Below are positions 15,916 through 41,780 of a DNA stretch of 44,097 nt, piece by piece. The translations under genes and the position numbers were made by a program. The stretch is from assembly GCA_937129385.1 (NCBI GenBank), contig CAKZNC010000190.1:1-44097 (forward strand), written 5' to 3'. The stretch comes from an uncultured Bacteroidota bacterium (GTDB lineage Bacteria; Bacteroidota; Bacteroidia; Bacteroidales; GCA-2748055). How positions within the stretch are numbered: the stretch's first letter is position 1; each line of letters opens with the position of its first letter. The notes beneath the pieces are model-generated. The model saw only the letters and a program-made list of their open reading frames with translations, had not been told where the DNA came from and ran no database searches.

Positions 15916-15945
15916 TTTGAACTCGCAAATATTATCTTATTTTTG
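15916..15945 (+). promoter_or_regulatory. Bacteroidota consensus promoter for the histidine kinase gene
   Basis: TTTG at 15916-15919 is separated by 18 bases from a perfect TAnnTTTG box, TATTTTTG (15938-15945). Transcription would begin near 15952, giving a leader of about 20 bases to the ATG at 15973. This placement rules out an in-frame TTG at 15943 as start, because that TTG lies inside the promoter. Confidence 0.75.
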
Positions 15946-15972
15946 CACTTACTGACCACCGTACTTGGAAAA

Positions 15973-18118: not shown

Positions 18119-18219
18119 TAACTAACTAACTAACTAACAAACTAAACTAAACTAGAGAATTATGAAAAGAAACACTACTCAGTCATTATAAATATTTACC
18201 AACCTTCGTTCGTATTCCT
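18119..18219. other. TAAC tandem repeat and possible SusC/SusD remnant
   Basis: TAAC is repeated five times (18119-18138) and followed by related CTAAA units. An ATG at 18162 then opens a nine-codon frame, MKRNTTQSL-stop. On the minus strand, codons ending at 18196 read NTNEGW-stop, a typical SusD C-terminus, one base out of frame with the neighbouring GH92 end. The layout looks like a SusC leader with an aborted start beside a SusD tail, left after a rearrangement. The peptides are very short, so chance is a real alternative. Confidence 0.3.
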
Positions 18220-20512
18220 ACTCCCAGAAGATCTTTTTTTCCTGTCCCATTACAAATCTCAGCGTACCCCCATCTGCAATGTCCGCATGATCAATATAGG
18301 AGGTGGTCAGTTTTTCTCCGTCCAAAAATACCTCCTGCACATAAGGATGATCATCAGAAAGCGCTTCAGCCTCCACAGTAAAAGTATTCCCCTCCTTCAT
18401 TGCGATCTCCACCCTGTCAAACAGGGGTTTACCAATGGAATATTTTGTATCCCCGGGGCATACCGGGTAGATCCCGATCGAATTCAGGATGTACCAGGCC
18501 GACATCTGTCCGCAATCCTCGTTTCCGCATAACCCGTCGGGCTGATCCGTATAAAACTCATCCACGATCTGAGAAACGATCTCCTGTGTCCGCCACGGCT
18601 GGTCGACATAATTGAACAGGTAAGCGATGTGGTGACTCGGCTCGTTGCCATGGGCATACTGACCTATCAAACCGGTTATATCAGCCGATTTTTCCTCACC
18701 CAATACCTCCGATGAGGTGGTGAACAGTGAATCAAGTTTCACTGCAAATGCCTCCTTGCCTCCCATGAGTCCGATCAGTCCATCCACATCATGCGGCACA
18801 TACCACGTCCACTGCCAGGCATTGCCCTCCACATAAGGTGTGTTCCAGTGTGACGAGTATCTTGGGTGGAACGGCTCATCCCAGGTTCCGTCGAGGCGTT
18901 TTCCACGCATGAATCCTGTCTCTTTATCAAAATAGGTCGCATAACGTTTGGACCTCGTAAAAAAGTCTTCAGCAATATCGTCCCTGCCCAGCTCAGCAGC
19001 CATCGTGGCAATTGCCCAGTAATTATATGCAAATTCAAGGGCCTTGGAGACCGATGCTCTCTCAAGGTCACAAGGGATAAACCCATACTTTTCCTCGTAC
19101 ATCTTTGCTTTTGGCATCAGGTTGCCCCAGGCATGCTCGGAGGGGTAACTAATTTCTTTTACTGTGTCATATTTTACTGAGTGCACGATCGCCTCCAGTG
19201 CCTTCTCCGCATCAAAATCACGTTGCCCTTTCATAAAGGCATCCACGATAACGGAGACGGCATGTGAACCGATCATCGTACCTGTATAATTGGATGCCAG
19301 TTCCCACATGGGCAGGATTCCTCCCTCGTCATATTTTCTCAACAACGCCCTGATCAACTCCTGGTTGTATTCAGGATCGATGATTGTGAAGAGCGGGTGA
19401 AGGGATCGATGTGTGTCCCAGAGTGAGAAAACCGTATAATTCGGACTTTCTGAGGAGACGATCTCCTGGTTCATGCTCCGGTAACGGCCATCAACATCTG
19501 AGTTGATCCCCGGGAAGATCATGGAGTGATACAATGCAGTATAGAATGTCCTTTTATCAGCTTCATTTTCGGTTTCAACCTTGATCCCCGACAATTTTTC
19601 TTCCCACTTTTCTGCTGCTGCCTTTCTGTAGGTATCGAAATCCCAATCCTTCGCCTCAGTATCCAGGTTCATCGCAGCACCCTCAAAACTTACCGGGCTG
19701 ATGCCAACCTTGGCGATCAACTGCTCGGTGGCATCTTCCTCAAATATAAGCTTGACCTTTATATTCTTACCGCTTACATTGTCCAGGTCCCGCACCAGCT
19801 GTCCGTCCATGTAAATCTCCGCAGTGAAAGGTGCTGAAAAACGTGCAGCAAAATAGACGGGATGATATTTGGCCCACCCGCTGGTCAGCTTCAACCCACG
19901 AATCTCACGGTCATTGATGATCCTGACCTCGTGTTTGGGATTTTGGTGGCCGTGAATGGTATGTGTAAGATCGATCAATATCCCCGGTCGCTCGTCCTGA
20001 GCAAAGCGGTACCTGTGGATTCCCACCCGTGTGGTGGCAGTTAATTCTGCATCGATATCATCATCAGTCAGCTTCACCTTGTAATAACCAGGCGTCGCTA
20101 TTTCCGAACTCCTGTCGAACCGCGACCTGAAACCACTATCAGGATCTTTTGCCTGCCCTGAATCCAGTGCGATCTCTCCCGAAAATGGCATAAACAACAC
20201 GTCTCCGTAATCACCGATTCCCGTGCCGCTTAAATGCGTATGACTGAACCCCAGGATGGAAGAATCGGAGTAATGGTATCCCGCACATGCATCCCAGCCA
20301 AGTATTCGTGTATCCGGACTCAGTTGAACAAGGCCGAAAGGTGTTGTAGCCCCCGGAAAAGTGTGTCCGTGGAAATCTGTACCTATAAAAGGATCAACAT
20401 ACTTCAGTACACTGCCGGATGTTTGCGTTTCGTCTCCGCATGAAAATAACATTCCGGAGAGAATGATCAATATAGCGAAAGGTTTTATACTTTTTGAAAA
20501 GGTGTGGTTCAT
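18218..20512 (-). CDS. GH92-type alpha-mannosidase lipoprotein
   Basis: I chose the start at 20512 (MNHTFSKSIK, 764 residues) because it gives a lipoprotein signal with Cys25 (LFSCG); an ATG seven codons upstream is less natural. The N-terminal beta-sandwich has the GH92 hallmark GTDFHGHTFPGATTPFG (~44-60). The (alpha/alpha)6 barrel holds VEGNAWQWTW (Glu562) and GNEDCGQMSAW (663-673, Asp666), regions that carry the catalytic acid and base in studied GH92 calcium-dependent exo-alpha-mannosidases. The residue assignments are by analogy. The length is normal. The enzyme is expected on the outer membrane or in the periplasm, trimming alpha-mannosyl residues. The upstream gene on the same strand is the SARP-like regulator, 184 bases away. 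Confidence 0.93.
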   Translation of the reverse strand: MNHTFSKSIKPFAILIILSGMLFSCGDETQTSGSVLKYVDPFIGTDFHGHTFPGATTPFGLVQLSPDTRILGWDACAGYHYSDSSILGFSHTHLSGTGIGDYGDVLFMPFSGEIALDSGQAKDPDSGFRSRFDRSSEIATPGYYKVKLTDDDIDAELTATTRVGIHRYRFAQDERPGILIDLTHTIHGHQNPKHEVRIINDREIRGLKLTSGWAKYHPVYFAARFSAPFTAEIYMDGQLVRDLDNVSGKNIKVKLIFEEDATEQLIAKVGISPVSFEGAAMNLDTEAKDWDFDTYRKAAAEKWEEKLSGIKVETENEADKRTFYTALYHSMIFPGINSDVDGRYRSMNQEIVSSESPNYTVFSLWDTHRSLHPLFTIIDPEYNQELIRALLRKYDEGGILPMWELASNYTGTMIGSHAVSVIVDAFMKGQRDFDAEKALEAIVHSVKYDTVKEISYPSEHAWGNLMPKAKMYEEKYGFIPCDLERASVSKALEFAYNYWAIATMAAELGRDDIAEDFFTRSKRYATYFDKETGFMRGKRLDGTWDEPFHPRYSSHWNTPYVEGNAWQWTWYVPHDVDGLIGLMGGKEAFAVKLDSLFTTSSEVLGEEKSADITGLIGQYAHGNEPSHHIAYLFNYVDQPWRTQEIVSQIVDEFYTDQPDGLCGNEDCGQMSAWYILNSIGIYPVCPGDTKYSIGKPLFDRVEIAMKEGNTFTVEAEALSDDHPYVQEVFLDGEKLTTSYIDHADIADGGTLRFVMGQEKKIFWE

Positions 20513-20556
20513 GATAAATATTTCTGAGTACAAAATATAAATCTGAACTTAAAAAA

Positions 20557-20590
20557 GGATTAATAAACAATTAACCCGGTGGATTAATCC
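20557..20590. promoter_or_regulatory. Operator-like GGATTAAT repeat upstream of the GH92 gene
   Basis: GGATTAAT occurs at 20557-20564 and 20581-20588, 24 bases apart. The second copy is part of a 10-base palindrome, GGATTAATCC. The site lies 45-80 bases upstream of the GH92 start. A regulator-binding site is plausible; the SARP-like regulator gene next door is a candidate. Confidence 0.3.
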
Positions 20591-20696: not shown

Positions 20697-23240
20697 TTAC
20701 TCATCCTTCGGTTTGCCGCTCTCGATAATGCTGTTGAATGAACGTTTGTACTCCTCATCGTAAAGCGTCTTGTACTCTTTGACGAATTTCGCATAGGATT
20801 TCTTCGCAAGACTGTGCTTTCCGAGTTTGAAAAGCGTACGGCACTGAAGGATCATCGCCTCCTCACTGGCGATATCGAACATGAACATGCAATTGGTCAG
20901 ATGCAGTACGAAATCTGGTTCATTTTCATTCTCTTCCACGTAATCAGCCAGGGTATCAATGATATCGTTGGAGACTTCAGATTTGTATACATCCAGCCAG
21001 TCAGCATCGGTATTCATCAGGAACTGTCCCCGGTCAATAATCTTCAGGAGTTTCATGATGTCACTCCTGCTCTGCTTCCCCCCTTTCCGAACAATATCCA
21101 GGTAATCGGCATAATCGATCTGCATGGTCTTAGGATCATACTCAAATTTCCAGTAACCTGTATCCTTTGAAATGGTGGCAATCCCCACCTTGTCGAGCAA
21201 TGACTTGATCTTCACAATGTTGACCGCACGGTTGTTCCTTGCACTTTCGGTGCTCTTATCAAACCAGAAGGTCTCCGAGATTACCTGCGAAGAAACTCCT
21301 TTGTTATGTTTCAGTGAATTCAGCATGATGAAGAGCAGCAACTTTTTAAGCAACTGTGTAAACGATCCCGTGATGTCATTCCCCTCGCGGTCGATCACCT
21401 GGAAACCTCCGAAGAGGATGACTGAACTTTTCACCGGATCCCGCCGGTTCACCTGGAAATCTGTCGTTTCAGCGATCTCTTCCCTTACGTCCAATTTCTC
21501 TTCTTTCACCGGGACCCCAGACTTCCTGGTACTTCTTTTCCAGATCAGCCACGAAACCAGCAAAACAATGGCAATAACCATGGCAATAAAGATCACCCTG
21601 GGGGCAGGCATATCTCCGGAACCAGTAAGTTCCGTCTGCTTTACCCCTTTCTGTGGCGGAAATGCCAGCGAATAAATATCCAAATGAGTCACATCATTAT
21701 CAAGATAGCTGGTGATCGCAATCATCTTATCCGATCCCCTGCTGAAATAAAGCTCGGCGTCGGACTGAACATCAATGAATCTGAAATCGATGGGGATGTC
21801 CAGGTTTTCAAGCTCAGGCTCGTCCAGGTTGATCCGGATCAGCTGCAACTGATTATCGAACTGGTACTTCGAAAATGCAAGTGCATACAACATTCCATCC
21901 TCTATCACCGCAGTGTTGGCAAAGCAGAATGCATCAACTGTTTCCGGACAATCATAAAACTTCGTGAAACTTGTATCTTCGAAATTGTATTCCAGTAACT
22001 CGTAATAATAATCCGGACTCACAGTCTGCTGTCCGCTTTTACTGCCATACCCTCCCAACATGTAAAGTCTGTTTCTTTCTTCGCTGTATCCTACTGCAGC
22101 AAGATACCTGGGAAAATATTCGCCGCTGTAATTCACCGTATCGAATCCGATCTGCCCCGGGCGGGATTTTAATACCAGGTTTTTATAATAGAACTGTCCA
22201 TACCCTCCAAATGTATAAAGCGTTCCGTCGGGATGCAGGAAGTTATTGTGGTGCCAGAAGGTGGTCAGACTGCTTGTATCAGGGGGGAACAACGACCAGG
22301 CAGCAACCTCCGGATCATAATAGGATTTGTAATTGTGGTCAATGGAGTAAGAGATCAGCCGGTCATCGATGGTATCATACAAAATCTCGTTTGAACTAAT
22401 GAATTTGTATGGACTTTCAAACTCCATGTTGCTGATTGAATTATCTGTCAGGTCCAGCGTAAACAACGACTGCGAGGTCCCGATATAGATCAGGTCATCT
22501 TCCTGGTTGAAGGCAGTCTCTGTCCATCCGTTCAAATCCAGACTTGCGATCTTCTTCCAGTTTGTATGGAGTGTGATCAGCCAGTTTGGATTCTTCACCT
22601 TACCATCCCTGTTATGCAGCACCTCCTCAACAATCTCACCATCGGTCTGTTTCAGAGGCCAGGAAAAAGACCTGTTGTCAGTATTCAACTGAATGTCCCT
22701 GATGTTCATTCTTGCCACATCGGTGGTGGCAAAATTCCGATATTCATGCGCACCAAAGAAAATACGGACACCCTCATCCGGGTCGTATCCTTCGATCTCA
22801 TCCACAAGTACTGTATCTGCAAGATGACAGGAGATCGTATTCTCAGCAATATTGATACTGAATCTGAATTCCGTCCACTCGGAGGTAAGCGTCTCAATAG
22901 GGATCTCATAAGAGATCCGGCTGGGCTGATCGTTAAAAATCAGCTGAAAGTTCTTTGTATTACCGGGCAGGAAGCCATGGATAAAATCAATACTCTTGGA
23001 GCCAATTACCATGCGGTAGACATAACCGAAATAGGAGATCAGGTTCGGCTGAAACCTGAAATCGAAACTCAATTCAAGGCTGTTTTCGAATTGAACAGGC
23101 TTTACCGGTGTCAGGTTGAGTTCAGTACGCTCATTCAACGGCACTTCGTGTCCGGAAAACTGGAGTCCGTAAGACTGCCCCTGCAAATTAGGAGGTATCG
23201 TTGCAAAGCACACCAGTACAACCAGGTACCGCAACGACAT
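20697..23240 (-). CDS. Membrane-anchored SARP-like regulator with extracytoplasmic LamG-like and Kelch sensor
   Basis: The start at 23240 (847 residues, MSLRYLVVLVCFATIP) gives a signal peptide; an ATG twelve codons upstream does not. The mature protein has a LamG/concanavalin-like domain (~25-215, ENSLELSFDFRFQPN, SEWTEFRFSIN). A Kelch-type propeller follows at ~220-540 (LYTFGGYGQFYY, LYMLGGYGSKSG). One membrane helix lies at ~549-569. The cytoplasmic winged helix at ~607-702 (VILFGGFQVIDREG ... SQVISETFWFDKS ... AVNIVKIKSLLDKVG) matches the OmpR/SARP-type fold, and an alpha-helical BTAD-like domain of ~145 residues ends it. This is a one-component design: outside binding would act directly on a tethered DNA-binding domain. 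Targets are unknown; the GH92 gene and the divergent CotH gene are the nearest candidates. Confidence 0.82.
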   Translation of the reverse strand: MSLRYLVVLVCFATIPPNLQGQSYGLQFSGHEVPLNERTELNLTPVKPVQFENSLELSFDFRFQPNLISYFGYVYRMVIGSKSIDFIHGFLPGNTKNFQLIFNDQPSRISYEIPIETLTSEWTEFRFSINIAENTISCHLADTVLVDEIEGYDPDEGVRIFFGAHEYRNFATTDVARMNIRDIQLNTDNRSFSWPLKQTDGEIVEEVLHNRDGKVKNPNWLITLHTNWKKIASLDLNGWTETAFNQEDDLIYIGTSQSLFTLDLTDNSISNMEFESPYKFISSNEILYDTIDDRLISYSIDHNYKSYYDPEVAAWSLFPPDTSSLTTFWHHNNFLHPDGTLYTFGGYGQFYYKNLVLKSRPGQIGFDTVNYSGEYFPRYLAAVGYSEERNRLYMLGGYGSKSGQQTVSPDYYYELLEYNFEDTSFTKFYDCPETVDAFCFANTAVIEDGMLYALAFSKYQFDNQLQLIRINLDEPELENLDIPIDFRFIDVQSDAELYFSRGSDKMIAITSYLDNDVTHLDIYSLAFPPQKGVKQTELTGSGDMPAPRVIFIAMVIAIVLLVSWLIWKRSTRKSGVPVKEEKLDVREEIAETTDFQVNRRDPVKSSVILFGGFQVIDREGNDITGSFTQLLKKLLLFIMLNSLKHNKGVSSQVISETFWFDKSTESARNNRAVNIVKIKSLLDKVGIATISKDTGYWKFEYDPKTMQIDYADYLDIVRKGGKQSRSDIMKLLKIIDRGQFLMNTDADWLDVYKSEVSNDIIDTLADYVEENENEPDFVLHLTNCMFMFDIASEEAMILQCRTLFKLGKHSLAKKSYAKFVKEYKTLYDEEYKRSFNSIIESGKPKDE

Positions 23241-23572
23241 CTTAAAATTATTACAGTCTCTTTGATCCCCCTGCATATCAGATATTACGGTTAAAAATTA
23301 CCAATTCCAATTAACCATTTTTTTTGGAAAGTAGAAAGCAAATGTACATAATTAATCATGATATTTCAGTAGTTTTTTTGCTGAACCGAGTTCTACCGAG
23401 CTCATGAGGCGAAACCGGATAATCTTACGAGGGCAACCTTTCAAACAAATACAGCACACAAAAACAGTGCGTTAATTAATTTTTAATGAATTGTTAAGTG
23501 AACCCCGTTACTTTTACCTGCCTGGCGTAAAAATTGCGCAGGAGCTACAAACAAAGCTGAATCTGATTCAAC
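23241..23572. other. Divergent intergenic region, 332 bases
   Basis: This AT-rich region lies between the SARP-like regulator (-) and the CotH gene (+). On the minus strand TACATTTG (23346-23339) is a good -7 box, about 100 bases from the regulator start, but without a clear TTTG upstream. On the plus strand TACTTTTA at 23509-23516 follows ATTG at 23490-23493 with a short 15-base spacer. No small gene or structured RNA was recognised. Confidence 0.4.
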
Positions 23573-25987
23573 ATGAGGATACCCTTTATTATTTCCCTTT
23601 TCGTTTTCTCTCTCACCGTATATTCACAGGGAACCGACCACTGGAAAAGCATTGTCCAGACAGGCATGACATGCAAGTACATGATCCCGGACCAGGAGAT
23701 TGGTGATGCATGGAAAGACAATGATTTCGATGACAGTGGCTGGACCGACGGCTTGAACGGGATCGGTTACGGGGATGACGATGATGCCACAATCGTACCT
23801 TCCGGAACACAGTCGGTGTACATGCGCTATACATTCAATATTGAAGATACAGCGCTCCTCAGACAATTGATCCTTGACATGGACTATGACGATGGTTTTG
23901 CGGCATACCTCAACGGTACAGAAATCGCCAGTGGGAATATCACCAAGCCATACAGCTGGGACATGACACTCGAACGCGACCACGAAGCTGCACTCTACCA
24001 GGGATTGCTGCCCGAAAGATGGAACCTGAGTGAATCTGTGTATGGCCAAGCCCTGGAAAACGGGAACAACATTCTTGCCGTCGAGATCCACAATGTGGGC
24101 ACCACTTCAAGCGACATGAGCTCAAACGTATTTTTACATGCGAATTTCACGGAGGATGTTACAGGATACAGTGATCCGCCACAATGGTTTAAACCACCGG
24201 TGACACTTTACAGTCATCTCCCCATCGTAGTTATAAATACAACCAATAGCATCCCCGACGAGCCCAAAGTACATGCATGGATGGACATCATCTATACTGA
24301 AGGTGATACCTCGAGTCAGTACGACACGCCAAATGTCTATTCCGGCCATATCGGAATTGAAAGAAGGGGCGAGTCATCGTCTGGATGGCCCAAGAAGCAG
24401 TATGCCATTGAAACACGTACAGCACAGGACAGTAACCTGAATGTATCCCTGTTGGGGATGCCGGCAGAAAACGACTGGATATTGAATGCCCCATACTCAG
24501 ACAAGACCCTCATAAAGAATGTGCTTACCTTTAAGCTATCAAGGCAGATGGGAGAATCTGCACCCAGGACACGTTTTGTCGAAGTGGTTCTCAATGGTGA
24601 CTACCAGGGCATCTATGTCCTCATAGAGAAGATCAAACAGGACAGTGGCCGGGTGAACATTGCCAAGCTATTGCCGACCGACACCGAGGGAGATGAACTC
24701 ACCGGTGGATATCTCGTCCGAAATGACAAAACCACTGACATGGAATCATATGAGTACTGGAGAGGTCCTTCCGACCGACCTTACGGATTGCAGAGCCTGT
24801 ATATGTTCTACGACCCCAAATATGAAGACATGGCCTATGAGCAGCGAAGATACATCGTGGATTTCACCAAGACCTTCGAAGATGCCCTGATCTCTTCGAA
24901 TTTCAGGGATTCACTCGACGGGTACAGGAAATATACCGATGTATTCTCCTACATTCATATGATGTTTATCAATGAGATGAGCATGAATGTGGACTGCTAC
25001 CATTTCAGCACCTATTTTTATAAGGACAAAGATTCGGACGGGGGAAAATTCTTCTCAGGGCCAGTCTGGGATTACAATCTCTCCTGGGGCAACGTGAATT
25101 ACGGGAATGTATATGCCGACGATGGGTTTATTTATACCCGCGGTGGCAGGATGTTTCATTGGCGGCGCATGATGGAAGATCCCTGGTATGCCGACATTGC
25201 CTATGGCAGGTGGGACGACCTCCGAAGCAATGTGCTGAGCTGGCAGAACATTGAACACATCATCGACAGTTGTGTCACCCTGATGGGTCCTGCCATCGAC
25301 AGGAACTATGACAGGTGGCCTGTCCTTGGAACCTATTTATGGCCCAACGTGGAATGGCCGGAAACCCATGAGGAAGAGATCACCATGTTAAAGGATTTCA
25401 TTATCGAACGGCTCCCGTGGCTCGACAGCCAATGGAGCGGTATGGGGGATTATGCAGACTATCCTCCGCACCTTGTATGTCGGGACGACCAGTATTTTGT
25501 TGCCAACGTGGGTGCAGGAGCTTACTTTGTTGCTGAATATGGTGAACTGGACCCTGAATTTGCATGGGATGATTTCAATATTGAATCATTGAGCAACAAT
25601 ATCAATGGAGACAGGAGCCTGAACGGGGTAACGATTCCTGACAACACTTCGATTACCTGGACCATCACCGATTCACGCGGACAACAGGAAACATGCAGCT
25701 TCAATGTTTTCGTTGAGCCAACCAGTGTCATCCATGATGTGTATGCCGATTACCGGCTGAATATGTATCCCAATCCGGCCCGCGACCATTTCATTGTCGA
25801 AGCGAACTTCCCGATCAGTGAAGTCCTTGTGCAAACGATGGACGGGAAAACCATTCAGCATACAAAACCCGGCTTCGAGCGAAAAGTACAGATCAATACT
25901 TCATCACTCAGCAACGGGGCTTATATCGTAACCGTGAAATCGGATAATGGATTCAGGCGCAGCGAGCTACAGGTGATCACCAGGTAA
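23573..25987 (+). CDS. T9SS-exported CotH-family protein with N-terminal jelly-roll domain
   Basis: The 804-residue protein has a signal peptide (to ~19, VYSQG). A beta-sandwich at ~22-193 follows (WKDNDFDDSGW, GIGYGDDDD, LDMDYDDGFAAYLNG), a galactose-binding-like fold often found before CotH. The CotH domain (~215-620) shows GHIGIERRGESS, PKKQYAIET, NDWILNAPYSDKTLIKN, LNGDYQGIYVLIEKIK and GPVWDYNLSWGN, the last carrying the Asp/Asn expected for kinase-like metal binding. CotH-family members are protein kinases in Bacillus spores and invasins in fungi; in Bacteroidota they are uncharacterised surface proteins. An HYR/Ig-like spacer (~636-730) and a T9SS sorting domain (~740-804, MYPNPARDHFIV) end it. 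It is divergent from the regulator gene. Confidence 0.88.
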   Translation: MRIPFIISLFVFSLTVYSQGTDHWKSIVQTGMTCKYMIPDQEIGDAWKDNDFDDSGWTDGLNGIGYGDDDDATIVPSGTQSVYMRYTFNIEDTALLRQLILDMDYDDGFAAYLNGTEIASGNITKPYSWDMTLERDHEAALYQGLLPERWNLSESVYGQALENGNNILAVEIHNVGTTSSDMSSNVFLHANFTEDVTGYSDPPQWFKPPVTLYSHLPIVVINTTNSIPDEPKVHAWMDIIYTEGDTSSQYDTPNVYSGHIGIERRGESSSGWPKKQYAIETRTAQDSNLNVSLLGMPAENDWILNAPYSDKTLIKNVLTFKLSRQMGESAPRTRFVEVVLNGDYQGIYVLIEKIKQDSGRVNIAKLLPTDTEGDELTGGYLVRNDKTTDMESYEYWRGPSDRPYGLQSLYMFYDPKYEDMAYEQRRYIVDFTKTFEDALISSNFRDSLDGYRKYTDVFSYIHMMFINEMSMNVDCYHFSTYFYKDKDSDGGKFFSGPVWDYNLSWGNVNYGNVYADDGFIYTRGGRMFHWRRMMEDPWYADIAYGRWDDLRSNVLSWQNIEHIIDSCVTLMGPAIDRNYDRWPVLGTYLWPNVEWPETHEEEITMLKDFIIERLPWLDSQWSGMGDYADYPPHLVCRDDQYFVANVGAGAYFVAEYGELDPEFAWDDFNIESLSNNINGDRSLNGVTIPDNTSITWTITDSRGQQETCSFNVFVEPTSVIHDVYADYRLNMYPNPARDHFIVEANFPISEVLVQTMDGKTIQHTKPGFERKVQINTSSLSNGAYIVTVKSDNGFRRSELQVITR

Positions 25988-26053: not shown

Positions 26054-27460
26054 TCAGTAGTCCAGCGATTCCCGGAAGCGGGTATATTCCTGCTCCAGCT
26101 CCTTTAGTTTTTCAGGCGCACTGGCAGCCTGGTTTTCCTGTTCGGAAATATCACCTGAAAGGTTGAAAAGGAACCGCTCCCCTTCCATCATTTCAGGTTT
26201 GATACCGGGATAATCTGCAGGTGTGGCCTGTTCGACCGGCGCAATGATCGTCTCCCCGTCCGGTGCCCGCTTGTCCTTCCAGTTTTCCAGGTTGGGCTTA
26301 TGGTAGAACCTGGGCCTTTCAAGAAACAGTTTCCAGTTGCCATCCCTGACCGTCCGAATTTCATTGCCTCGCATCGTAAAGATGGGTGGATGTGAGGTCC
26401 GCTCACCGGTGAGAATAGTTGTTATGTCCTCCCCATCCAGAACCACTTCGGCTGGCAGATCAATGCCTGTAAGTGACAACAGGGTGGGGAATATATCGGG
26501 TGACCAGCATGGGGTTTCCACCGTCTCGCCTGCCGGAAAGACATCCGGGTACCGGATGATAAAGGGAACACGTACGCCCCCTTCCCAATTGGTGGCTTTT
26601 TTCCCCTTCAGGGGTTTCACGTTTCCTCCGTAGGATGCCCCATTGTCGGACATAAAGATCACGATCGTGTTTTCCAGGATTCCCTCTTTTTTCAATTCTG
26701 AAATGATCGCCTGTACCGACCAGTCCAGCTCCCTGATCACATCCAGGTATAAATCGTCGGGAGTCTCAGGGGTATAAAAATTCTCTGACGCAGCCAGAGG
26801 CTTGTGAGGCATGGCATGACACAGGTGCAGGAAAAATGGCTTGTCGCTGTTTTTACGGATGAAGCTGATCGCTTTCCCGGTGTAGGTTTTCGTGAGAATC
26901 GCCTGGTCGACCGGGTACATCACAGTATCCATGTTCTCAATGAGCTGCACCGGGCGCATGTCGTTGCTGTAGAGGATCCCATAATATTCATCGAACCCGT
27001 GCTTCACGGGAAAATACTGGGGAAGATGCCCCAGGTGCCATTTCCCGTAGCATGCAGTTCGGTACCCATTCTCCCGGAACACTTCCCCCAGCATGATTTC
27101 GGAATCACGGATCCCGACACTGTCGATGCCTGCATCGGGTGCCGGGTTCTGCACAACGCCATGCCGTAGCGGAAAACGACCGGTCAGCAGGGTTGCCCGC
27201 GAAGGCGCGCAATAGGGAGTGGGCACGTAAAAATCTGTGGCCCGGACACCTTCACTGGCCAGTTTGTCGATATGCGGCGTAGAGGTGGCCTCGTCACTGT
27301 AGCAGGAGATATCGCTGTACCCCATGTCATCGGTAAGGATGATCAGTACATTCGGGGGCTGGATTGATTTCTGGTTTCCATTGTTGCATCCGGAAGTAAG
27401 GAGCAGCATGCAGGGAACAATGGATGTGATTAAGATGGATCTTTTCAATATGTGCATCAT
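26054..27460 (-). CDS. Lipoprotein sulfatase (S1 family)
   Basis: The 468-residue lipoprotein (Cys25, LTSGC) hydrolyses sulfate esters, probably from a glycan. The S1 signature CAPSRATLLTG puts the formylglycine precursor at Cys84, with the C-x-P-S-R core intact. Metal ligands Asp44 and Asp45 (LTDDMGYSD) and the later SDNGAS motif are present, as is YGKWHLGH. A formylglycine-generating enzyme must activate it; none is encoded in this window. The C-terminus is normal and has no T9SS domain, so it is membrane-anchored, unlike the other sulfatase here. The endonuclease/exonuclease/phosphatase-family gene lies 106 bases upstream on the same strand and may be co-transcribed. Confidence 0.94.
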   Translation of the reverse strand: MMHILKRSILITSIVPCMLLLTSGCNNGNQKSIQPPNVLIILTDDMGYSDISCYSDEATSTPHIDKLASEGVRATDFYVPTPYCAPSRATLLTGRFPLRHGVVQNPAPDAGIDSVGIRDSEIMLGEVFRENGYRTACYGKWHLGHLPQYFPVKHGFDEYYGILYSNDMRPVQLIENMDTVMYPVDQAILTKTYTGKAISFIRKNSDKPFFLHLCHAMPHKPLAASENFYTPETPDDLYLDVIRELDWSVQAIISELKKEGILENTIVIFMSDNGASYGGNVKPLKGKKATNWEGGVRVPFIIRYPDVFPAGETVETPCWSPDIFPTLLSLTGIDLPAEVVLDGEDITTILTGERTSHPPIFTMRGNEIRTVRDGNWKLFLERPRFYHKPNLENWKDKRAPDGETIIAPVEQATPADYPGIKPEMMEGERFLFNLSGDISEQENQAASAPEKLKELEQEYTRFRESLDY

Positions 27461-27566
27461 GATTGTTCTGTTTATACAAATATGAATTGATTTCGGTTAT
27501 TGAGAGTCCTAATTTGCATTTCATTCTCGCAGGCCACCCACTTATGAGGGGTTTTTAAGGCGGATT

Positions 27567-28490
27567 TCACTCGTAACCGGTCAGCTCAAACTCGACATAG
27601 ATGGGGTTGTGATCCGAGGGATAGACACCGTCAACATTGTACTTCACCTCTTCATATTTCAGCACCTTCACCGGACCCTTGTATAAGATCCAGTCGATCT
27701 CATTGTGATCCGTGGATGTGTCGGTAAACAGACCGGGGACATTGCCTGTGGCTCCTTTAACAAGGACCTTGTAGGGTGGACTGCCGGGCCTGCAATTGAA
27801 ATCCCCCATCAGGAATACCGGTCGCTCCGCTGTCCATTCACCGAATCTTGCCAACGCACTTACCCGGTCATGGATAAGTCGTGATGCATTCAGCCTGGCC
27901 AAGGCTTCACTGCGGCTGTTAAAGAAATGGGTGTTGAAAACATAGAATTCCCGGGTATGCTCCCAGTGTCCGCGGTAATCCTGTGGATAGGGACCATTTT
28001 TCCCTTCGGCAGGAATATCGATTAATGCCAGCCTGACCCAGGTGACCATTCGGGGATTGACATCCGGACCGCTCCCGATCACCTCCGGGGTTTCGGAAAG
28101 CTGGAAACTCTGAAGCTCCCGCAAACGAAACTTATCTCTTTTAATAAAGATGGCCATGTGCTCATCATCATCACCACCCTGGCGTCCTTCTCCAACGACA
28201 ATATATTCCGGGAGATGCGCTGCCAGGAAATCGATTTGCGCTTTCAACCCCTCCTGCGTGCCGATGATATCCGGATCATACTGCCGGATCATCTCCAGCT
28301 GCATATCGCGACGTACCTCCCAGGCGGGTTCAAAGGTCGGACTGGCAAACTTGATGTTGTAGGTCATCATACTGATGGTCAGGTCGTCACCACCCATGTT
28401 AGGTGACTGGGCCAGGGCGGAATCTTCAGAGATACTTGTCAGACCGATAAGGCAAAAAACAATTGCAGGGATAAAAGAAGATGGTTTCAT
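27567..28490 (-). CDS. Secreted endonuclease/exonuclease/phosphatase-family enzyme
   Basis: The 307-residue protein has a signal peptide (to ~28, SALAQS). All EEP-fold catalytic motifs are visible: Asn45 (MTYNIKF), Glu80 (GTQEGL), His188 (FNTHFF), Asp230 and Asn232 (MGDFNCRPG), Asp266 (IDWILYKG), and Asp293/His294 (PSDHNPIYVE). This fold hydrolyses phosphodiester or phosphomonoester bonds in nucleic acids, phosphoinositides or sphingomyelin; secreted members in Bacteroidota have unproven substrates. It is divergent from the Gfo/Idh/MocA gene and upstream of the sulfatase on the minus strand. A role in removing phosphate from a glycan or nucleotide is inference. Confidence 0.9.
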   Translation of the reverse strand: MKPSSFIPAIVFCLIGLTSISEDSALAQSPNMGGDDLTISMMTYNIKFASPTFEPAWEVRRDMQLEMIRQYDPDIIGTQEGLKAQIDFLAAHLPEYIVVGEGRQGGDDDEHMAIFIKRDKFRLRELQSFQLSETPEVIGSGPDVNPRMVTWVRLALIDIPAEGKNGPYPQDYRGHWEHTREFYVFNTHFFNSRSEALARLNASRLIHDRVSALARFGEWTAERPVFLMGDFNCRPGSPPYKVLVKGATGNVPGLFTDTSTDHNEIDWILYKGPVKVLKYEEVKYNVDGVYPSDHNPIYVEFELTGYE

Positions 28491-28651
28491 ATTGCGTGAT
28501 TATTATTGGAATTCGGAAATAGGTCCGGATCGCAAACCACAAATTACTGTGCATGGTATAATGATCGCTTAATAATTGATTAATGGAGCCCAATTCGAAT
28601 CATTAATACTCAGTTTATTAAAAATTAACAGGCTTGATGTATATTGTGTAC

Positions 28652-29743
28652 ATGAAAAAACAAATACTCCTGGCAGTTTGCATCTGCCTGATCGGAACAA
28701 TGATGATCGCACAACAGCCGGTAAAGATCGGGGTTGCCGGGTTATCGCATTCCCATGTAGTCCCTTTGTTGCGCAATATGGACCGGGATGATATCGAGAT
28801 CGTGGGGATCGCTGAAAGTGATGAAAAACTGGTGCAGCGGTATGTAGATAGATTTGGCTTTGACAAGGGGCTGGTATATGAAACACTTGAAGAGATGGTG
28901 GAAAAGACAGCACCCGAGGGTGTGATCACCTTTACTTCGATATTTGACCACCTCAAAGTTGTGGAAGTTTGTGCTCCAATGGGCATCCATGTGATGGTGG
29001 AGAAGCCGCTGGCGGTATCCATGGAGCATGCCAACGAGATGGCCGGACTGGCAAAAAAGCACGGGATCATGGTGCTGACCAATTACGAAACCTCCTGGTA
29101 TCCGTCAAACCATTTTGGATACAGCATGATCCGGGAAGGGAAGCTGGGCAAGCTCAGAAAGGTCATCGTATATGACGGACACAAGGGGCCGAAAGAGATC
29201 CGGGTGAACGAGGAGTTCCTGGACTGGCTCACCGATCCGGTCCTGAACGGTGGCGGGGCGGTGATGGATTTCGGCTGCTATGGCGCCAATCTGCTTACCT
29301 GGATCCTGGATGGTGAAAAGCCTGAAAGTGTCTATGCCAGCCTGAATCAGTACAAACCAGGTGTCTACCCGAAGGTGGACGACGACGCCACCATCATTCT
29401 CTCCTACCCCGATATGGAAGGGGTGATCCATGCATCATGGAACTGGCCGTTTAACCGAAAAGACATGCATGTTTACGGGACAACCGGCTATTTTTACCAG
29501 GACGACGCAGAACATGTACGGTACAGGCTTGATGAATCATCCGGGGTACAATCGGAGCAGATCGGGCCGGCCACCATTCAGTATACCGACCCATTCAATT
29601 ATTTCGCCGATGCGATAAGGGGAAAGGTGGAGATCAAACCAACCGACCTCGCTGCACTTGAACTGAACATCACCGTTGTGGAGATCCTCGAGGCTGCAAA
29701 GGAGAGCAGCATGAAAGGCCGGGAGGTGAGGCTGACCCGGTAG
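28652..29743 (+). CDS. Secreted Gfo/Idh/MocA-family oxidoreductase
   Basis: I chose the ATG at 28652 (363 residues, MKKQILLAVCICLIG), which opens a signal peptide cut near MIAQQ; in-frame TTG/ATG codons at 28634-28637 are earlier but unlikely. The N-terminal Rossmann domain begins KIGVAGLSHSHVV, with the usual GxGxxG altered. The EKP motif is at 118-120 (VMVEKPLAVS). The C-terminal domain has GGGAVMDFGCYGANLL, of the glucose-fructose-oxidoreductase-like subtype in which Tyr replaces His. The family oxidises or reduces sugars using NAD(P). Export is notable since the cofactor is cytoplasmic; it must be carried tightly bound. It follows the divergent EEP gene. Confidence 0.88.
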   Translation: MKKQILLAVCICLIGTMMIAQQPVKIGVAGLSHSHVVPLLRNMDRDDIEIVGIAESDEKLVQRYVDRFGFDKGLVYETLEEMVEKTAPEGVITFTSIFDHLKVVEVCAPMGIHVMVEKPLAVSMEHANEMAGLAKKHGIMVLTNYETSWYPSNHFGYSMIREGKLGKLRKVIVYDGHKGPKEIRVNEEFLDWLTDPVLNGGGAVMDFGCYGANLLTWILDGEKPESVYASLNQYKPGVYPKVDDDATIILSYPDMEGVIHASWNWPFNRKDMHVYGTTGYFYQDDAEHVRYRLDESSGVQSEQIGPATIQYTDPFNYFADAIRGKVEIKPTDLAALELNITVVEILEAAKESSMKGREVRLTR

Positions 29744-29912
29744 ATAAAATTACGCATAGTATTCCGGAGGGATTGAATGGGTTTAAACCTCCCAATGCGT
29801 GACATGAAATGCTGTTCATAATGATGAGATACAAGATTAATCTTTAATTAATATTCTGTTATTGTATACAATTTATCATTGTGTTATCATTCATTTTTAA
29901 CCCCACAATTCC

Positions 29913-32900
29913 ATGATGAAAAGTATCCGTTTATCGCTTTACCTGGTTATTTCGCTATCCATTCTTATCCTGTTTCCGCAGGATAATACAGCACAAACCG
30001 AAGCTGCGCTGGTCTATCCCGGTGAAGATGGCAGACTGGTATATGTAAAACATGCCAACGTCGAGGAAAGCAACCTGGATAACATGGTCATTGATTATTC
30101 TCACTGCGGCTTCATGGGTGGCGGTGTTGCCATCCCGGACATCCCGGTAATGGCCACTGTATATCCTCAATTCGGGGATGACCAGCAACGGATCCAGGAG
30201 GCCATCGATTATGTGTCCGGACTCGAACCAGATAAAAACGGATACAGGGGCGCAGTATTGCTGAAAGCAGGCACCTATGAACTCGGAAATTCTTTACAGT
30301 CGTTTAATGATGCTCTACAAATTAAAACCAGCGGTGTGGTCCTTCGCGGAGAGGGACAGGGGCCCGGTGGAACGATTCTGAGAACGGCATACGAAACGAA
30401 GCACCAGGTGATCGCAACACGGCCGCAAAGACCATCCATCGGCACCAGTAATCTTACAAGGATCGCCGATCCATATGTGGGGTCAGGGGTTTTTGGATTC
30501 CACGTGGAGGATGCCAGTGCCTACCAGGCCGGTGACACTATCTTTGTCCGCTTTACACCAAACCAGGCATGGTTCGACGAAACCTATGCAAACGCATACA
30601 TGGGAGACGGAGACATTGACTGGGACGCCGGGACCTATACCATCAAATATGAACGTATCATCACGAATGTGGAAATCGACAGCATCACCATTCACTCCCC
30701 CGTGATCATGCCGATGCAGACGAGCTTGGGCGGTGGTGAAATTGTGAAATTATCGCTGTCACAGGAGCGTTTAAACAGGGTGGGCGTGGAAAACATGCGC
30801 CTGATCGGCACTGGGATTACCCCAACGTGTCCCGCAGATGATCCAAACAGGCTGCAGACGGCGATTCATTTTGAATACACAGAGAATAGCTGGATCAGGG
30901 ATATCACGGTCCTCCATACCTCCAATTCACTTTTTAAGATGTGGGACGCTCACCATGTCACCATAGAAGATTGCGCGTCACTTGATCCGCTTGGTCCGAA
31001 ACGTGCCGGTTACCGCTACACCTTCTATTTTGATGCGGCCTCCAGCCACAACCTTTGTCAGCGCACCTACACTTACGACGGCCGACATGACTATGTGCTT
31101 GGTCCCCGGATCCCGGGACCCAACGTGTTTCTTGATGGTGTTTCCGAACGGGGTGGCACACAGGGCCCACACCAGCGACTGGCCACAGGCACCCTGTTTG
31201 ATAATCTGAAACTTCAAAGTCTGATTGCCCTTGAGCACCGGAACGGATCCGGCTCGGGTCACAGCTGGGCCGGCATGCAGAGCACGATCTGGAACACGGA
31301 ATCTCCTTCCGTCATCTGTGATGCACCGGTGGGCCATATGAACTATGCCATTGGCAATACGGGCACCGAGATACTGAGCGGATATATCAACAACACACAA
31401 CCAGGCGTCTACAGGGGACATTACGATTCACACGGGGAGCATGTGGTGCCCAGGAGTCTCTATCTTAAACAGCTGGAAGACAGGCTGGGAACCTCTTCAG
31501 TAGGAAATATTACCATACCTGAACAGCTGGATGGTGTTATTTATGACATGATTGAATCCTGGAAGGGAGAGGGTGCGCTGGAAGAAACCGGTACAGCATC
31601 AATGGCCTCCCCCACAGATTTAACCGTATCGGACCTGGGAACCACGGAAGGATCGGAGTACATTGAATTCCAGTGGACCGACAATGTGCCGGATGAGACC
31701 AAATTCATCCTCGAAAGATCAGCCGATGGCGGTGTGACATTCACCCAGGTGGCAGAGCTCGCAGCCAATTCCAAAACTTTCAGGGACGAAGATATTCTCC
31801 AGGATACTTACCATTACAGGCTCAAGGCAGTGAATGACCTGTTGGAATCGGGGTATGTTTACCTTTTTGCCGACCTTTTCGACGAGGCACTATATGCCAC
31901 CGTGACTTTCAGGGTGGATATGCAGGAGATCAATGACCTCTTCGATGGTGGCGATGTATGGATGGTCGACCACATGGACGATGCGAGGTTTGAAATGACA
32001 GACGAAGACACCGATTCCATTTACACCCTTGCCCTCTCATTCATGGTGGGCAAAAACCTGGCATACAGTTTTGCCTACCAGGACGGGGCAGATTCCGCAA
32101 CAAATATCGTGATGGAAACCGTTACAGGTGACTGCCTAAACAGCGAAGGGACCAGGCATCTGGTGGTGACATCGGAAGATATTGTGCTTCCCCCGAATCT
32201 ATTCGGATCATGCGATGTAGCACTTCCCGATGGAACCGATGTAACCGATCTGGAAGGAACCATTATCTTCGGATCAAATGATGATGAGCAATGGATCGAT
32301 GCAGAAAACGGATCCGGTTCACCTCCCAATGAGAGAGTTGAAAAGCTGATCGATAATGACATCGAGACCAAGTACCTGGTTCGGGCAGTATATTCCTGGG
32401 TGGAGATTAAAACCAACCGGTTTGTGAAGCTGAACGGCTATACCATTACCTCCGCCAACGACGCACCTGAGCGGGACCCCAGGGCATGGGAGCTGAGGGG
32501 CTGGAACAGGGAGACCGAAACCTGGGAGACCCTCCACGAGGTGAACAACAACCCCGTGTGGGAAAGCAGGCACAAGATCAGGGTCTGGAACATCGAAAAT
32601 GATCAATGGTACCACAGGCACCGCCTCTACATCCAGGGAATCAATGGCGACATCCAGGGTTTGATGCAAATGGCAGAACTGCAGCTGTTCGGTGAAGCGG
32701 GAGATTATACGGGTACCCGGAATGTTACGCAGGATCCCGCAATGGTCTGGCCCAACCCGGCAAGCGATCAACTGCATATGATGTGGCCGGTGCAAGGGAA
32801 TGTGACCGTCGAACTTTATGATGTCTCGGGGAAAAAGGTCCTGGATAAAATTCACCGGGATGGATCGGCGTCATCATTCAGCATGGACGTCTCCTCGCTA

Positions 32901-32978
32901 AATGCAGGGATGTATATTCTCAGGCTGATGAATGCCGATGAGATCGTGGTAAAGAAGATCCTGGTGGATCAGCATTGA
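29913..32978 (+). CDS. T9SS-exported multidomain beta-helix protein, candidate polysaccharide lyase
   Basis: The 1021-residue protein (ATG at 29913 or 29916) has a signal peptide to ~28. A right-handed beta-helix at ~55-525 resembles the pectate-lyase-3 type: DYSHCGFMGGGVAIP, GAVLLKAGTYEL, VVLRGEGQGPGGTIL, and repeated short turns (SWIRDITVLH, HHVTIEDCAS). An FN3 domain (~566-650), a VTFRVDM-type beta-sandwich (~660-768), a discoidin/F5-8-C-like carbohydrate-binding domain (~780-928) and a T9SS sorting domain (~942-1021, VWPNPASDQLHM) follow. The catalytic residues of this lyase-like family are not known to me, so the activity is unproven. The gene converges on the sulfatase at the end of the polysaccharide locus. 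Confidence 0.85.
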   Translation: MMKSIRLSLYLVISLSILILFPQDNTAQTEAALVYPGEDGRLVYVKHANVEESNLDNMVIDYSHCGFMGGGVAIPDIPVMATVYPQFGDDQQRIQEAIDYVSGLEPDKNGYRGAVLLKAGTYELGNSLQSFNDALQIKTSGVVLRGEGQGPGGTILRTAYETKHQVIATRPQRPSIGTSNLTRIADPYVGSGVFGFHVEDASAYQAGDTIFVRFTPNQAWFDETYANAYMGDGDIDWDAGTYTIKYERIITNVEIDSITIHSPVIMPMQTSLGGGEIVKLSLSQERLNRVGVENMRLIGTGITPTCPADDPNRLQTAIHFEYTENSWIRDITVLHTSNSLFKMWDAHHVTIEDCASLDPLGPKRAGYRYTFYFDAASSHNLCQRTYTYDGRHDYVLGPRIPGPNVFLDGVSERGGTQGPHQRLATGTLFDNLKLQSLIALEHRNGSGSGHSWAGMQSTIWNTESPSVICDAPVGHMNYAIGNTGTEILSGYINNTQPGVYRGHYDSHGEHVVPRSLYLKQLEDRLGTSSVGNITIPEQLDGVIYDMIESWKGEGALEETGTASMASPTDLTVSDLGTTEGSEYIEFQWTDNVPDETKFILERSADGGVTFTQVAELAANSKTFRDEDILQDTYHYRLKAVNDLLESGYVYLFADLFDEALYATVTFRVDMQEINDLFDGGDVWMVDHMDDARFEMTDEDTDSIYTLALSFMVGKNLAYSFAYQDGADSATNIVMETVTGDCLNSEGTRHLVVTSEDIVLPPNLFGSCDVALPDGTDVTDLEGTIIFGSNDDEQWIDAENGSGSPPNERVEKLIDNDIETKYLVRAVYSWVEIKTNRFVKLNGYTITSANDAPERDPRAWELRGWNRETETWETLHEVNNNPVWESRHKIRVWNIENDQWYHRHRLYIQGINGDIQGLMQMAELQLFGEAGDYTGTRNVTQDPAMVWPNPASDQLHMMWPVQGNVTVELYDVSGKKVLDKIHRDGSASSFSMDVSSLNAGMYILRLMNADEIVVKKILVDQH

Positions 32979-33057
32979 TCATAGGATCACTTTTGATCAA
33001 CAGAGATGATCACTGAGCAGAATTGATCTGCTATTATTACCGTAACAAATTGTGATC
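32942..33057. repeat. Cluster of nine GATC sites, some about 10 bases apart
   Basis: GATC starts at 32942, 32957, 32967, 32977, 32985, 32995, 33008, 33025 and 33054. Several are within TGATCA palindromes. The first three lie in the coding end of the beta-helix gene, the fourth spans its stop codon, and the rest lie in the convergent intergenic gap. Confidence 0.6.
33016..33032. terminator. Weak convergent terminator hairpin
   Basis: AGCAGA and TCTGCT pair perfectly (6 bp) around a 5-base loop. ATTATT follows on the plus strand. It lies between the beta-helix gene and the convergent sulfatase gene, so it is well placed, but the stem is short. Confidence 0.4.
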
Positions 33058-33074
33058 AATTGTCAATGTTGCCA

Positions 33075-35972: not shown

Positions 35973-36025
35973 TGAAAAAGGGGTTTTTCGTAGTTTGGGA
36001 CAATTATTTCTATAAATAAAAGCGA

Positions 36026-36063
36026 CCGGCATTAACCACCTGTTAACAGATGCTTAACGCCGG
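36026..36063 (-). terminator. 38-bp imperfect palindrome between the SusCD block and the sulfatase
   Basis: The two arms run from CCGGC at each edge to a central TTAA, with one mismatch and two wobbles. On the minus strand it is followed by TCGCTTTTATTT. It fits an intrinsic terminator with partial read-through; a protein-binding operator is an alternative because the centre (CTGTTAACAG) is itself a perfect palindrome. Confidence 0.65.
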
Positions 36064-36095
36064 ATTTATAAACTGGTGATTGAGCTTGAGTACTG

Positions 36096-37127
36096 CTATT
36101 TTGCATCGAGTACCACCACCTGGAACTCTTCGAAAGTTACATCTGTATCGATAAAAACCAGCGAATCCATGGCATGGTAGGTATCTCCCCCATCTTCGAA
36201 AGTATAATCAAGGTAGAGTGTCCTGTGCCGGTAATCGGTATAACTTTCCGCCTCTTCATCATCCTTTGTGTAAAATTTCCCTGATCCGTTCACTACCACC
36301 GTTGTACTGTCCATCTGGGTCAATGAAATATCCCTGGAGCCCTCATCAAAGGTAAGGAGCATTCTGTATTTACCTCCTTTATTGGTCCCCCCCAGTGTTG
36401 ACACCATGCTTTCCGTCAACGATCGTGTCGTAAGTTTTGTCATATCGTTATCGGTAAGAAATCTTGTGGAATAGAAGGTGGTATCCGGGGTTGCAGCTGT
36501 TGTGTTGATTGTTCTCCCCCGAAGCAGGTAAACACCGTGCAGCTTATTGATGTATTGAATACCGAAAAGGGTATAATTTTTTGGGGGTGTATTCCATTGC
36601 TCAGCAACACGCGGATCGGGATCTTCAAAGAGGCTTGAGGGATCTCCGCTGAGCACCGTGTCACCAAAGGCATCTGTTATTTTTACCGGGATGACGTATT
36701 TAAGATCAACAGTTGCGGGATCTGCAAAGAAAGCATCCTCCAGGTTCACCCTCATTTTACCGAAAAAGCTTCCTGCCGGAATCGTGATCCTGTCAAATGT
36801 GGCATTGTAGTATTCCGAAGGAAGAAGCGCGAGGGTATCCCCGTCAGCATTTGTTATATTTTCAGTCAGCTCCGGAGCCAGTTCAACGGCAACAACTCTT
36901 TCCTCTTCATTTTCATAGGTGCCCCCGAGCGCCACACCGATGCTGAACGCGTGTTCCCTGTCTATGGTATTATCTCCTTCAACTTCATCGCCAAGGATGA
37001 GGGTCCTCACTGGTGTTTGAAATGGGAAGTATACTGCCTGGTACTCAAAATCATCAAATTCCACATCCTGGTTGGTACAACTGAAACCCAGGATAATTAT
37101 GCCTAGCAAGAGAAATGTCCTTTTCAT
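36096..37127 (-). CDS. DUF1735/DUF5627-like surface lipoprotein
   Basis: The 343-residue lipoprotein has Cys17 (LGFSC). The N-terminal ~130 residues look like a DUF1735-type beta-sandwich: YQAVYFPFQTPVRTLILGD, REHAFSIGVALGG, DRITIPAGSFFGKMRV. This domain type accompanies SusD proteins. The C-terminal half (~165-343) matches my memory of DUF5627 (GIQYINKLHGVYLLRGR, SLTQMDSTTVVV). It follows a SusD gene by 27 bases in the same operon. Such proteins usually act as surface glycan-binding proteins next to SusCD; direct binding here is inferred from context. Confidence 0.78.
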   Translation of the reverse strand: MKRTFLLLGIIILGFSCTNQDVEFDDFEYQAVYFPFQTPVRTLILGDEVEGDNTIDREHAFSIGVALGGTYENEEERVVAVELAPELTENITNADGDTLALLPSEYYNATFDRITIPAGSFFGKMRVNLEDAFFADPATVDLKYVIPVKITDAFGDTVLSGDPSSLFEDPDPRVAEQWNTPPKNYTLFGIQYINKLHGVYLLRGRTINTTAATPDTTFYSTRFLTDNDMTKLTTRSLTESMVSTLGGTNKGGKYRMLLTFDEGSRDISLTQMDSTTVVVNGSGKFYTKDDEEAESYTDYRHRTLYLDYTFEDGGDTYHAMDSLVFIDTDVTFEEFQVVVLDAK

Positions 37128-37154
37128 ATTTTCTCAATTTATTTGTTGAAACTA

Positions 37155-38885: not shown

Positions 38886-38902
38886 CTTCCTGATATTTAA
38901 GA

Positions 38903-41755: not shown

Positions 41756-41780
41756 AAGATTGAAGATTTGTTATGATTGT

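Follow-up and report, generated by a model that had tools for sequence, protein, structure and literature searches.

Can a SARP-type DNA-binding module, tethered to the membrane, control the degradation of sugar chains in Bacteroidota? The question is raised by a gene of an uncultured Bacteroidales bacterium (GenBank assembly GCA_937129385.1, contig CAKZNC010000190.1), lying in a stretch of 44,097 nucleotides that was analysed as a whole and is called the window here. A preliminary description, made from the sequence alone, had seen in it a SARP-like regulator with its DNA-binding half in the cytoplasm below one membrane helix and a LamG-like and Kelch sensor outside: a one-step alternative to hybrid two-component systems and to pairs of extracytoplasmic-function (ECF) sigma factors and anti-sigma factors. 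We confirm this observation and find its interpretation supported overall. With a probability of roughly 0.8, it encodes a transmembrane transcription activator of one-component type, acting on glycan genes through DNA sites composed of three repeats.

Relatives were collected by a scan of public genome contigs, which gave 285 stretches confirmed by tblastn; the results below rest on the best 80 of these 285. The alignment (A2) contains the window protein and 52 of the 80 loci; it omits L023, whose frame is split into two open reading frames (ORFs), along with 27 further loci. Since loci from the same genus are not independent, counts are also given over 33 taxonomic groups. The regulator ORF is real: its best relative is 48% identical over residues 15-853, and close relatives are collinear. 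Its upper boundary, first placed at 23240, is the second methionine (residue 13) of a frame that reaches 23276; standing just ahead of the signal peptide, it is nonetheless a plausible true start.

The DNA-binding half is recognized through its predicted fold. An AlphaFold2 model of the whole protein, built on 53 sequences with a mean predicted local distance difference test score (pLDDT) of 86, contains in order a signal helix, a beta sandwich (about residues 38-206), a propeller (241-540), a helix at residues 559-582, beta-alpha elements of winged-helix type and a helical bundle. Modelled alone, the C-terminal part reaches a pLDDT of 92.7 and a predicted template modelling score of 0.86. Foldseek places AfsR on top for this model (E 3e-6) and EmbR second. 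VIA-align gives AfsR a Z of 15.4 (234 residues aligned, root-mean-square deviation (rmsd) 4.3, 11% identity) and EmbR 14.7, with the next fold at 8.0. Helical models may reach a Z of 13 by chance; we trust both matches because they exceed this value, cover both domains and stand far ahead of the other rows. As modelled, the C-terminal half is an OmpR/SARP-type winged helix followed by a BTAD-like bundle. At E values up to 0.5, Pfam matches Trans_reg_C in one of 13 family members (4e-4) and BTAD in one (0.037); for the C-terminal part of 37 relatives, it matches BTAD in seven (best 0.005) and Trans_reg_C in five (best 8e-5). A profile of the same part, run against PDB sequences, finds SaeR as its best match, at E 0.095 or worse.

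The propeller aligns with the Kelch domain of LZTR1 (9mf0_F) at a Z of 22.9, over 273 residues and with an rmsd of 3.3. Its fold matches are mostly eukaryotic protein-binding Kelch domains; one is YjhT (2uvk), a sugar-acid epimerase. Kelch_6 is matched in all 13 family members (E up to 0.5), and in the window protein alone the Kelch matches are weak, below the curated cut-offs. The LamG-like label is the weakest part of the domain reading: Laminin_G_3 is weakly matched in one of 32 members (6e-6), and the sandwich was modelled within the whole protein only. Its profile finds a single PDB chain, at E 0.33; full-length fold searches were dominated by Kelch rows, hence they say little about the sandwich. 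Of the sensor described earlier, the Kelch propeller stands, the LamG-like part is tentative and the sensing of glycans would be its presumed role.

A membrane helix passes the hydropathy cut-off at the aligned position in 50 of 53 members. The 15 residues flanking it hold on average 5.2 lysines and arginines on the DNA-binding side versus 1.9 on the other, and the inside count exceeds the outside one in 48 of the 50. Because of this bias and of the signal peptide, we predict an N-out, C-in topology, in agreement with the cytoplasmic placement of the DNA-binding half proposed earlier. Assuming that the helix sits in the inner membrane, "outside" is the periplasm. A secreted Kelch or galactose-oxidase-like enzyme was considered as a full description; it is excluded by the membrane helix and the cytoplasmic SARP half.

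The regulator keeps the company of glycan genes. ORFs called in the 80 loci were clustered with blast and labelled by Pfam, using one representative or a window member per cluster; the representative of the GH99-like cluster scores under its curated cut-off. A GH92, GH3, GH43, GH95-like, GH99-like or SusC/SusD-type gene lies within 10 kb in 72 of the 80 loci: GH92 is found in 51, immediately adjacent in 39, and SusC/D-type genes in 35. For 39 of 40 selected loci (L026 left out), an expectation was derived from the GH92 density of the same genomes: GH92 occurs within about 10 kb in 24 of them versus 1.1 expected, and is seen in 19 of the 33 groups. The predicted link between homologues and glycan genes is thereby borne out.

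The same loci share a candidate operator: three direct repeats centred on TTAA, in steps of exactly 11 bp, with the geometry of SARP sites and a consensus of mostly [A/G]TTAA[T/G]. It was counted in promoter-type intergenic regions of 80-1200 bp, omitting convergent gaps; intergenics of 40 random 20-kb regions from the same genomes served as control. In regulator-flanking intergenics, self-similarity at offset 11 amounts to 492 versus 143 after shuffling. The density of TTAA pairs at 11 bp is 335 per 100 kb next to the regulator, falling to 119 in the remaining neighbourhood and to 17 in the random regions. Triples are found in 52 of 120 regulator-flanking intergenics, 33 of 287 others of the neighbourhoods and 1 of 232 random ones; at spacings of 8-10 and 12-15 bp, any set contains 0-3 sites. 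Mere A/T-richness is excluded as an explanation: the step of 11 bp is a specific one, which random intergenics do not show. A flanking triple is present at 45 of the 80 loci, and any triple at 55 (14 of the 33 groups).

In 86 oriented sites, a T/A-rich stretch lies at a fixed distance past the last repeat, with TT at +41/+42 in 94-95% of cases; little else is conserved around them. This -7-like stretch resembles the Bacteroidota -7 box. In 41 tandem gene pairs, the strand of the motif agrees with that of the gene 36 times, disagrees once and is undecided four times, by a partly circular score. By label, the targets of the 86 sites are GH92 (31), SusC (15), GH95-like (12), GH99-like (9) and the regulator itself (2), with 17 unlabelled. 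Autoregulation as the main output was rejected: where the regulator is one of two divergent genes, 25 of the 28 sites between them point away from it, again by the partly circular score.

The sites also follow the regulator across genomes. A strict pattern yields 85 sites in 39 regulator-bearing genomes versus 3 for the reversed control, with at least one site in 32 of the 39. In an even sample of 395 Bacteroidota genomes, it yields 60 sites versus about 39 in the control, by hand count. Ten of the 60 fall in 11 regulator-bearing genomes (the weak match in G405 left out of this split), seven of which have no strict site; the remainder, about 50 versus 37, is near background. The window's own genome (4.28 Mb) has a single copy of the regulator and four strict sites. 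Three of them are inside the window; each is oriented to its gene, and the -7-like element follows at its conserved position. From first repeat to ATG, they lie 62 bp from a GH92 gene (likely ATG), 101 bp from a CotH-domain gene and 85 bp from a sulfatase gene (likely ATG).

With a loose pattern, the same genome gives 13 sites versus 2 for the reversed control. Outside the window, the genes that follow them include two of GH99-like type (77% and 54% identical to regulator-flanking genes of other species), a sulfatase gene 66% identical to that of the window, a TonB receptor gene 259 bp away and an aldo/keto reductase gene. A divergent intergenic region with three loose matches (L183, G000:C15) lies far from the regulator, between genes of a GH99-like protein and of a protein with a type IX secretion tail. 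Twenty strict sites of six other genomes were picked by hand as distant from the regulator, individual distances being unchecked. Fifteen are followed within 500 bp by a correctly oriented ORF, and five have none. Nine of the 20 precede sugar genes: GH92 (2), GH99-like (2), GH95 (1), ROK (2), ThuA (1) and TonB receptor (1). The others precede ECF sigma (2), MG2 (1), Fasciclin (1), an unidentified gene (1) and cytochrome c (1), whose family is found beside the regulator in other places.

Several results weigh against our reading. Profile support for Trans_reg_C and BTAD is marginal across relatives, and in the window protein itself Pfam finds no Trans_reg_C, BTAD or other winged-helix match. 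The triple flanks the regulator in only 12 of the 33 groups, congeneric loci being non-independent. In 25 of the 80 loci, among them all three of Pinibacter and all three of Chitinophaga, the intergenics examined contain no triple; triples are also missing from the regions of several paralogues (e.g. L119-L122, L125-L128) and from ten regions of deeply branching relatives (L132-L141). No Sus or GH92 neighbours surround L132-L136 and L138-L141 among the latter, whereas L137 and L142 have them. The score that orients sites draws on features of these same sites when pooled, which makes the strand agreement partly circular. Finally, loose sites of the own genome also precede TetR, histidine kinase and lipoprotein-like genes, of which the TetR and the kinase are unrelated. 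As to the fold, we had weighed the conclusion that Pfam's silence means no winged helix; the Foldseek and VIA-align matches overturned it, so that the check proposed at the outset succeeds by structure prediction and marginally by profile. The features of the window are collected in Table 1.

Table 1 Features of the regulator gene, its candidate operators and the surrounding genes (window positions).
Feature	Position	Strand	Details
Regulator coding sequence	20697..23276	-	859 residues, membrane-tethered SARP-type
Signal peptide	23175..23240	-	about residues 13-34; N-terminal hydrophobic helix in model; ends ..LQGQ before conserved YGL.F
LamG-like beta sandwich	22659..23171	-	about residues 36-206; model strands; weak profile match
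Kelch beta-propeller	21657..22574	-	about residues 235-540; fold match and Kelch_6
Membrane helix	21531..21602	-	residues 559-582; model and hydropathy
Juxtamembrane linker, low-confidence, variable	21429..21530	-	pLDDT <50 at 583-612; gapped in alignment
OmpR/SARP-type winged helix	21138..21428	-	residues 617-713; predicted structure
BTAD-like TPR bundle	20721..21116	-	residues 721-852; predicted structure; weak BTAD in 7/37 members
Candidate operator, GH92	20548..20575	-	-7-like TTATATTTTG at 20540-20531; likely ATG 20512
Candidate operator, CotH-domain gene	23471..23498	+	-7-like TTACTTTT at 23508-23515; ATG 23573
Candidate operator, sulfatase	36031..36058	-	-7-like TTTATTTA at 36020-36013; likely ATG 35972, not 36032
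GH92, predicted target	18218..20533	-	Glyco_hydro_92 5e-177; probable start 20512
Secreted CotH-domain protein with C-terminal sorting domain, predicted target	23573..25987	+	CotH 1.9e-54, Por_Secre_tail
Sulfatase with sorting tail, predicted target	33075..36032	-	Sulfatase 1.6e-44; probable start 35972
Glycan cluster around regulator	26054..43616		Pfam; includes Exo_endo_phos and GFO_IDH_MocA genes
Further sulfatase	26054-27460		glycan cluster
BT_3987-like gene	36096-37127		glycan cluster
Two SusD genes	37155-38885, 41781-43616		glycan cluster
SusC-type gene	38903-41755		no Pfam match; labelled from blast clustering

Three further genes of the window were noted. A GH99/WbsX-type gene (10156-11544) does not belong to the GH99-like cluster found beside the regulator in other genomes. 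A sensor histidine kinase gene (15943-18024), closest to FimS (1.8e-87, under the cut-off) and apparently unrelated to the regulator finding, adjoins a PBP1A-type gene (12680-14953).

We propose the following mechanism. In the periplasm, the LamG-like and Kelch part would meet a glycan-derived cue, and the signal would cross the single membrane helix and the flexible linker to reach the cytoplasmic winged helix and BTAD-like bundle. Its subunits, which probably assemble into a dimer or a higher oligomer, would bind the three direct repeats, whose predicted place is the -33 region, directly ahead of a -7 element of Bacteroidota type; because the site lies there, the bound regulator would be expected to recruit RNA polymerase in the manner of SARPs such as AfsR. 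In the window, the predicted targets are the genes for the GH92 enzyme, the CotH-domain protein and the sulfatase with the sorting tail; others, of GH99-like, sulfatase and TonB-receptor type, are scattered over the rest of the genome. Neither a phosphorelay nor a sigma/anti-sigma pair would be needed for the regulator step. The cue, signalling through the helix, dimerization, DNA binding and activation are steps that we infer.

The cue might instead be a protein or another envelope component, such as a surface enzyme or a transporter, with glycan genes being only the output. This is possible if doubtful: the matched Kelch domains are mostly protein-binding ones of eukaryotes, the LamG-like match is weak, and relatives with other or missing Kelch parts (L013, P0002) retain the same DNA-binding half, but YjhT is among the matched propellers, and tight linkage to glycan clusters, together with the control of periplasmic and surface glycan enzymes, makes a product of glycan breakdown the simplest cue. 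The regulator may also be activated by proteolytic release of its cytoplasmic half, as the 30-residue low-confidence linker between helix and winged helix could be cut. We hold this to be unlikely: the linker is not conserved, no cleavage motif was seen (none was searched for), and regulators that act in one step while tethered have been described, SusR being one (PMC3878776).

As the evidence from sites and fold does not measure the sign of regulation, a membrane-bound repressor lifted by its ligand would fit it too. Such a repressor is improbable, given where the repeats stand: ahead of the -7-like element, at the position of a -33 box, which is where SARP activators bind. SARP activator sites overlapping the -35 region are described in PMC10972967. 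Less probable still, the TTAA repeats would belong to another regulator or to the promoter architecture of glycan genes, the SARP-like protein being incidental. They are indeed short, A/T-rich and absent from some loci; against this, the triple turns up in only one of the 232 random intergenics drawn from these genomes, strict sites stay near background across the phylum sample, and the 11-bp step is the one of classical SARP repeats (PMC10972967). Our preferred reading remains a tethered activator acting on its own operator.

The usual SARP is soluble, with an N-terminal DNA-binding part, and the window regulator departs from both. What it shares with AfsR of Streptomyces and EmbR of Mycobacterium is, in the model, a winged helix with a BTAD-type TPR bundle behind it, the two spanning about 234 residues, and, in the predicted sites, three direct repeats in 11-bp steps over the -35/-33 region. 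SARP sites are likewise described, in PMC10972967, as direct repeats in 11-bp steps, often three, over the -35 region. Unlike AfsR and EmbR, to which it is 11-14% identical, the protein carries its DNA-binding part at the C-terminus, behind a signal peptide, an ectodomain and a membrane helix; it is associated with glycan genes, not antibiotic or arabinan genes, and its repeat is A/T-rich. Regulators of the ToxR/CadC type have an N-terminal winged helix joined by one membrane helix to a periplasmic sensor and are not known to carry a BTAD part: the elements of winged helix, single helix and sensor are common, and their order is reversed in the window regulator.

One-step membrane regulation of a glycan locus is already known, because SusR of Bacteroides has been published: PMC3878776 presents a membrane protein with a periplasmic sensor and a cytoplasmic DNA-binding domain that controls starch genes in one step. 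Our regulator resembles it in sensor, helix, cytoplasmic DNA-binding domain, direct repeats and the neighbourhood of a polysaccharide utilization locus. We set the two apart by the published description: it calls the DNA-binding domain of SusR unlike any known and predicts repeats 67 or 77 bp apart (PMC3878776), not 11. Hybrid two-component systems, with a periplasmic sensor, also control polysaccharide utilization loci (PMC3878776); unlike them, the 859-residue protein shows no kinase, receiver or AraC-type Pfam match. It shows no Sigma70 region 2/4 or FecR-type match of ECF sigma/anti-sigma systems either, neighbours not being systematically scanned for these. The earlier idea of a one-step alternative is supported, the candidate operator adding a direct regulatory link; its novelty falls, SusR having been overlooked, and tethered activation stays presumptive. 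As far as we found, the combination of SARP module, sensor and operator is new. A literature search of titles and abstract openings, with most subscription journals and bioRxiv outside it, found no such SARP-type protein, sensor or operator described; passages of PMC10766802 on the regulation of hemicellulases name hybrid two-component and ECF systems and do not contain "SARP".

The family is patchy and not universal in Bacteroidota, because in the phylum sample the whole-protein profile matches 15 of 395 genomes, four of them through the Kelch part alone, and the C-terminal profile matches 12, one of them weakly. Relatives are present in 10 of 61 related genomes, the own genome counted; their hosts include Pedobacter, Mucilaginibacter, Dyadobacter, Larkinella, Spirosoma, Chitinophaga and Bacteroidales metagenome-assembled genomes. 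On plasmid pPP5 of Persicobacter psychrovividus, a copy annotated as "hypothetical protein" is flanked by two GH92 genes and a SusC/D pair.

Compared across relatives, the sensor parts look exchangeable. In a relative with a 520-residue frame (L013/L126, G045:C63), the sandwich-like part, the membrane helix and the SARP half are kept and the Kelch part is missing. The deeply branching L140 and L141 (G283, G472) have two tandem regulators, of 684 and 854 residues in frame; the shorter one has hardly any propeller or none. No Sus-type genes are nearby. A weak match (L113, G405:C21; 1.7e-7) consists of long helical repeats ahead of a C-terminal part of SARP type and seems to lack a membrane helix. 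In the gut species Parabacteroides distasonis (NZ_OY725768.1, L100:10255-12930), Laminin_G_3, a membrane segment and the SARP-like half follow an unassigned N-terminal part, next to Gfo/Idh/MocA and sugar-isomerase genes. The P. distasonis protein WP_211744650.1 has a SARP-like C-terminal part 24.5% identical to residues 561-853 (2e-20), behind a membrane segment and Laminin_G_3; it differs by having no Kelch match, another N-terminal part and no 11-bp TTAA triple in its 24.9-kb region. In two Dyadobacter genomes, an ECF sigma-factor ORF begins 43 or 81 bp past a strict site (L222, L223; G073:C8, G080:C12), and a relay from the regulator to a sigma factor is possible there.

We lean slightly towards a wider, so far unrecognized class of transmembrane signalling, in which exchangeable periplasmic sensors (LamG-like with Kelch, sandwich alone, or other parts with LamG) would be coupled by one helix to a SARP module. 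From the membrane, its members would control dispersed regulons of GH92, GH99-like, GH95, sulfatase, SusC-type receptor and sugar kinase genes through a conserved operator of three repeats in 11-bp steps, some in Dyadobacter relaying to ECF sigma genes.

Glycan regulators of Bacteroidota are classed as SusR-like, hybrid two-component or ECF sigma/anti-sigma in PMC3878776. The regulator described here is a further candidate class, overlooked by annotation. Since a precise operator accompanies it, regulons become predictable genome by genome, and the site may find use as an orthogonal glycan-responsive promoter part. The SARP design, with its 11-bp repeats and BTAD domain, would then extend beyond antibiotic control in Actinobacteria, as a membrane-tethered switch. 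Altogether, it is very probable that in many Bacteroidota this regulator activates genes for sugar-chain degradation, via a newly recognized DNA site of three repeats.

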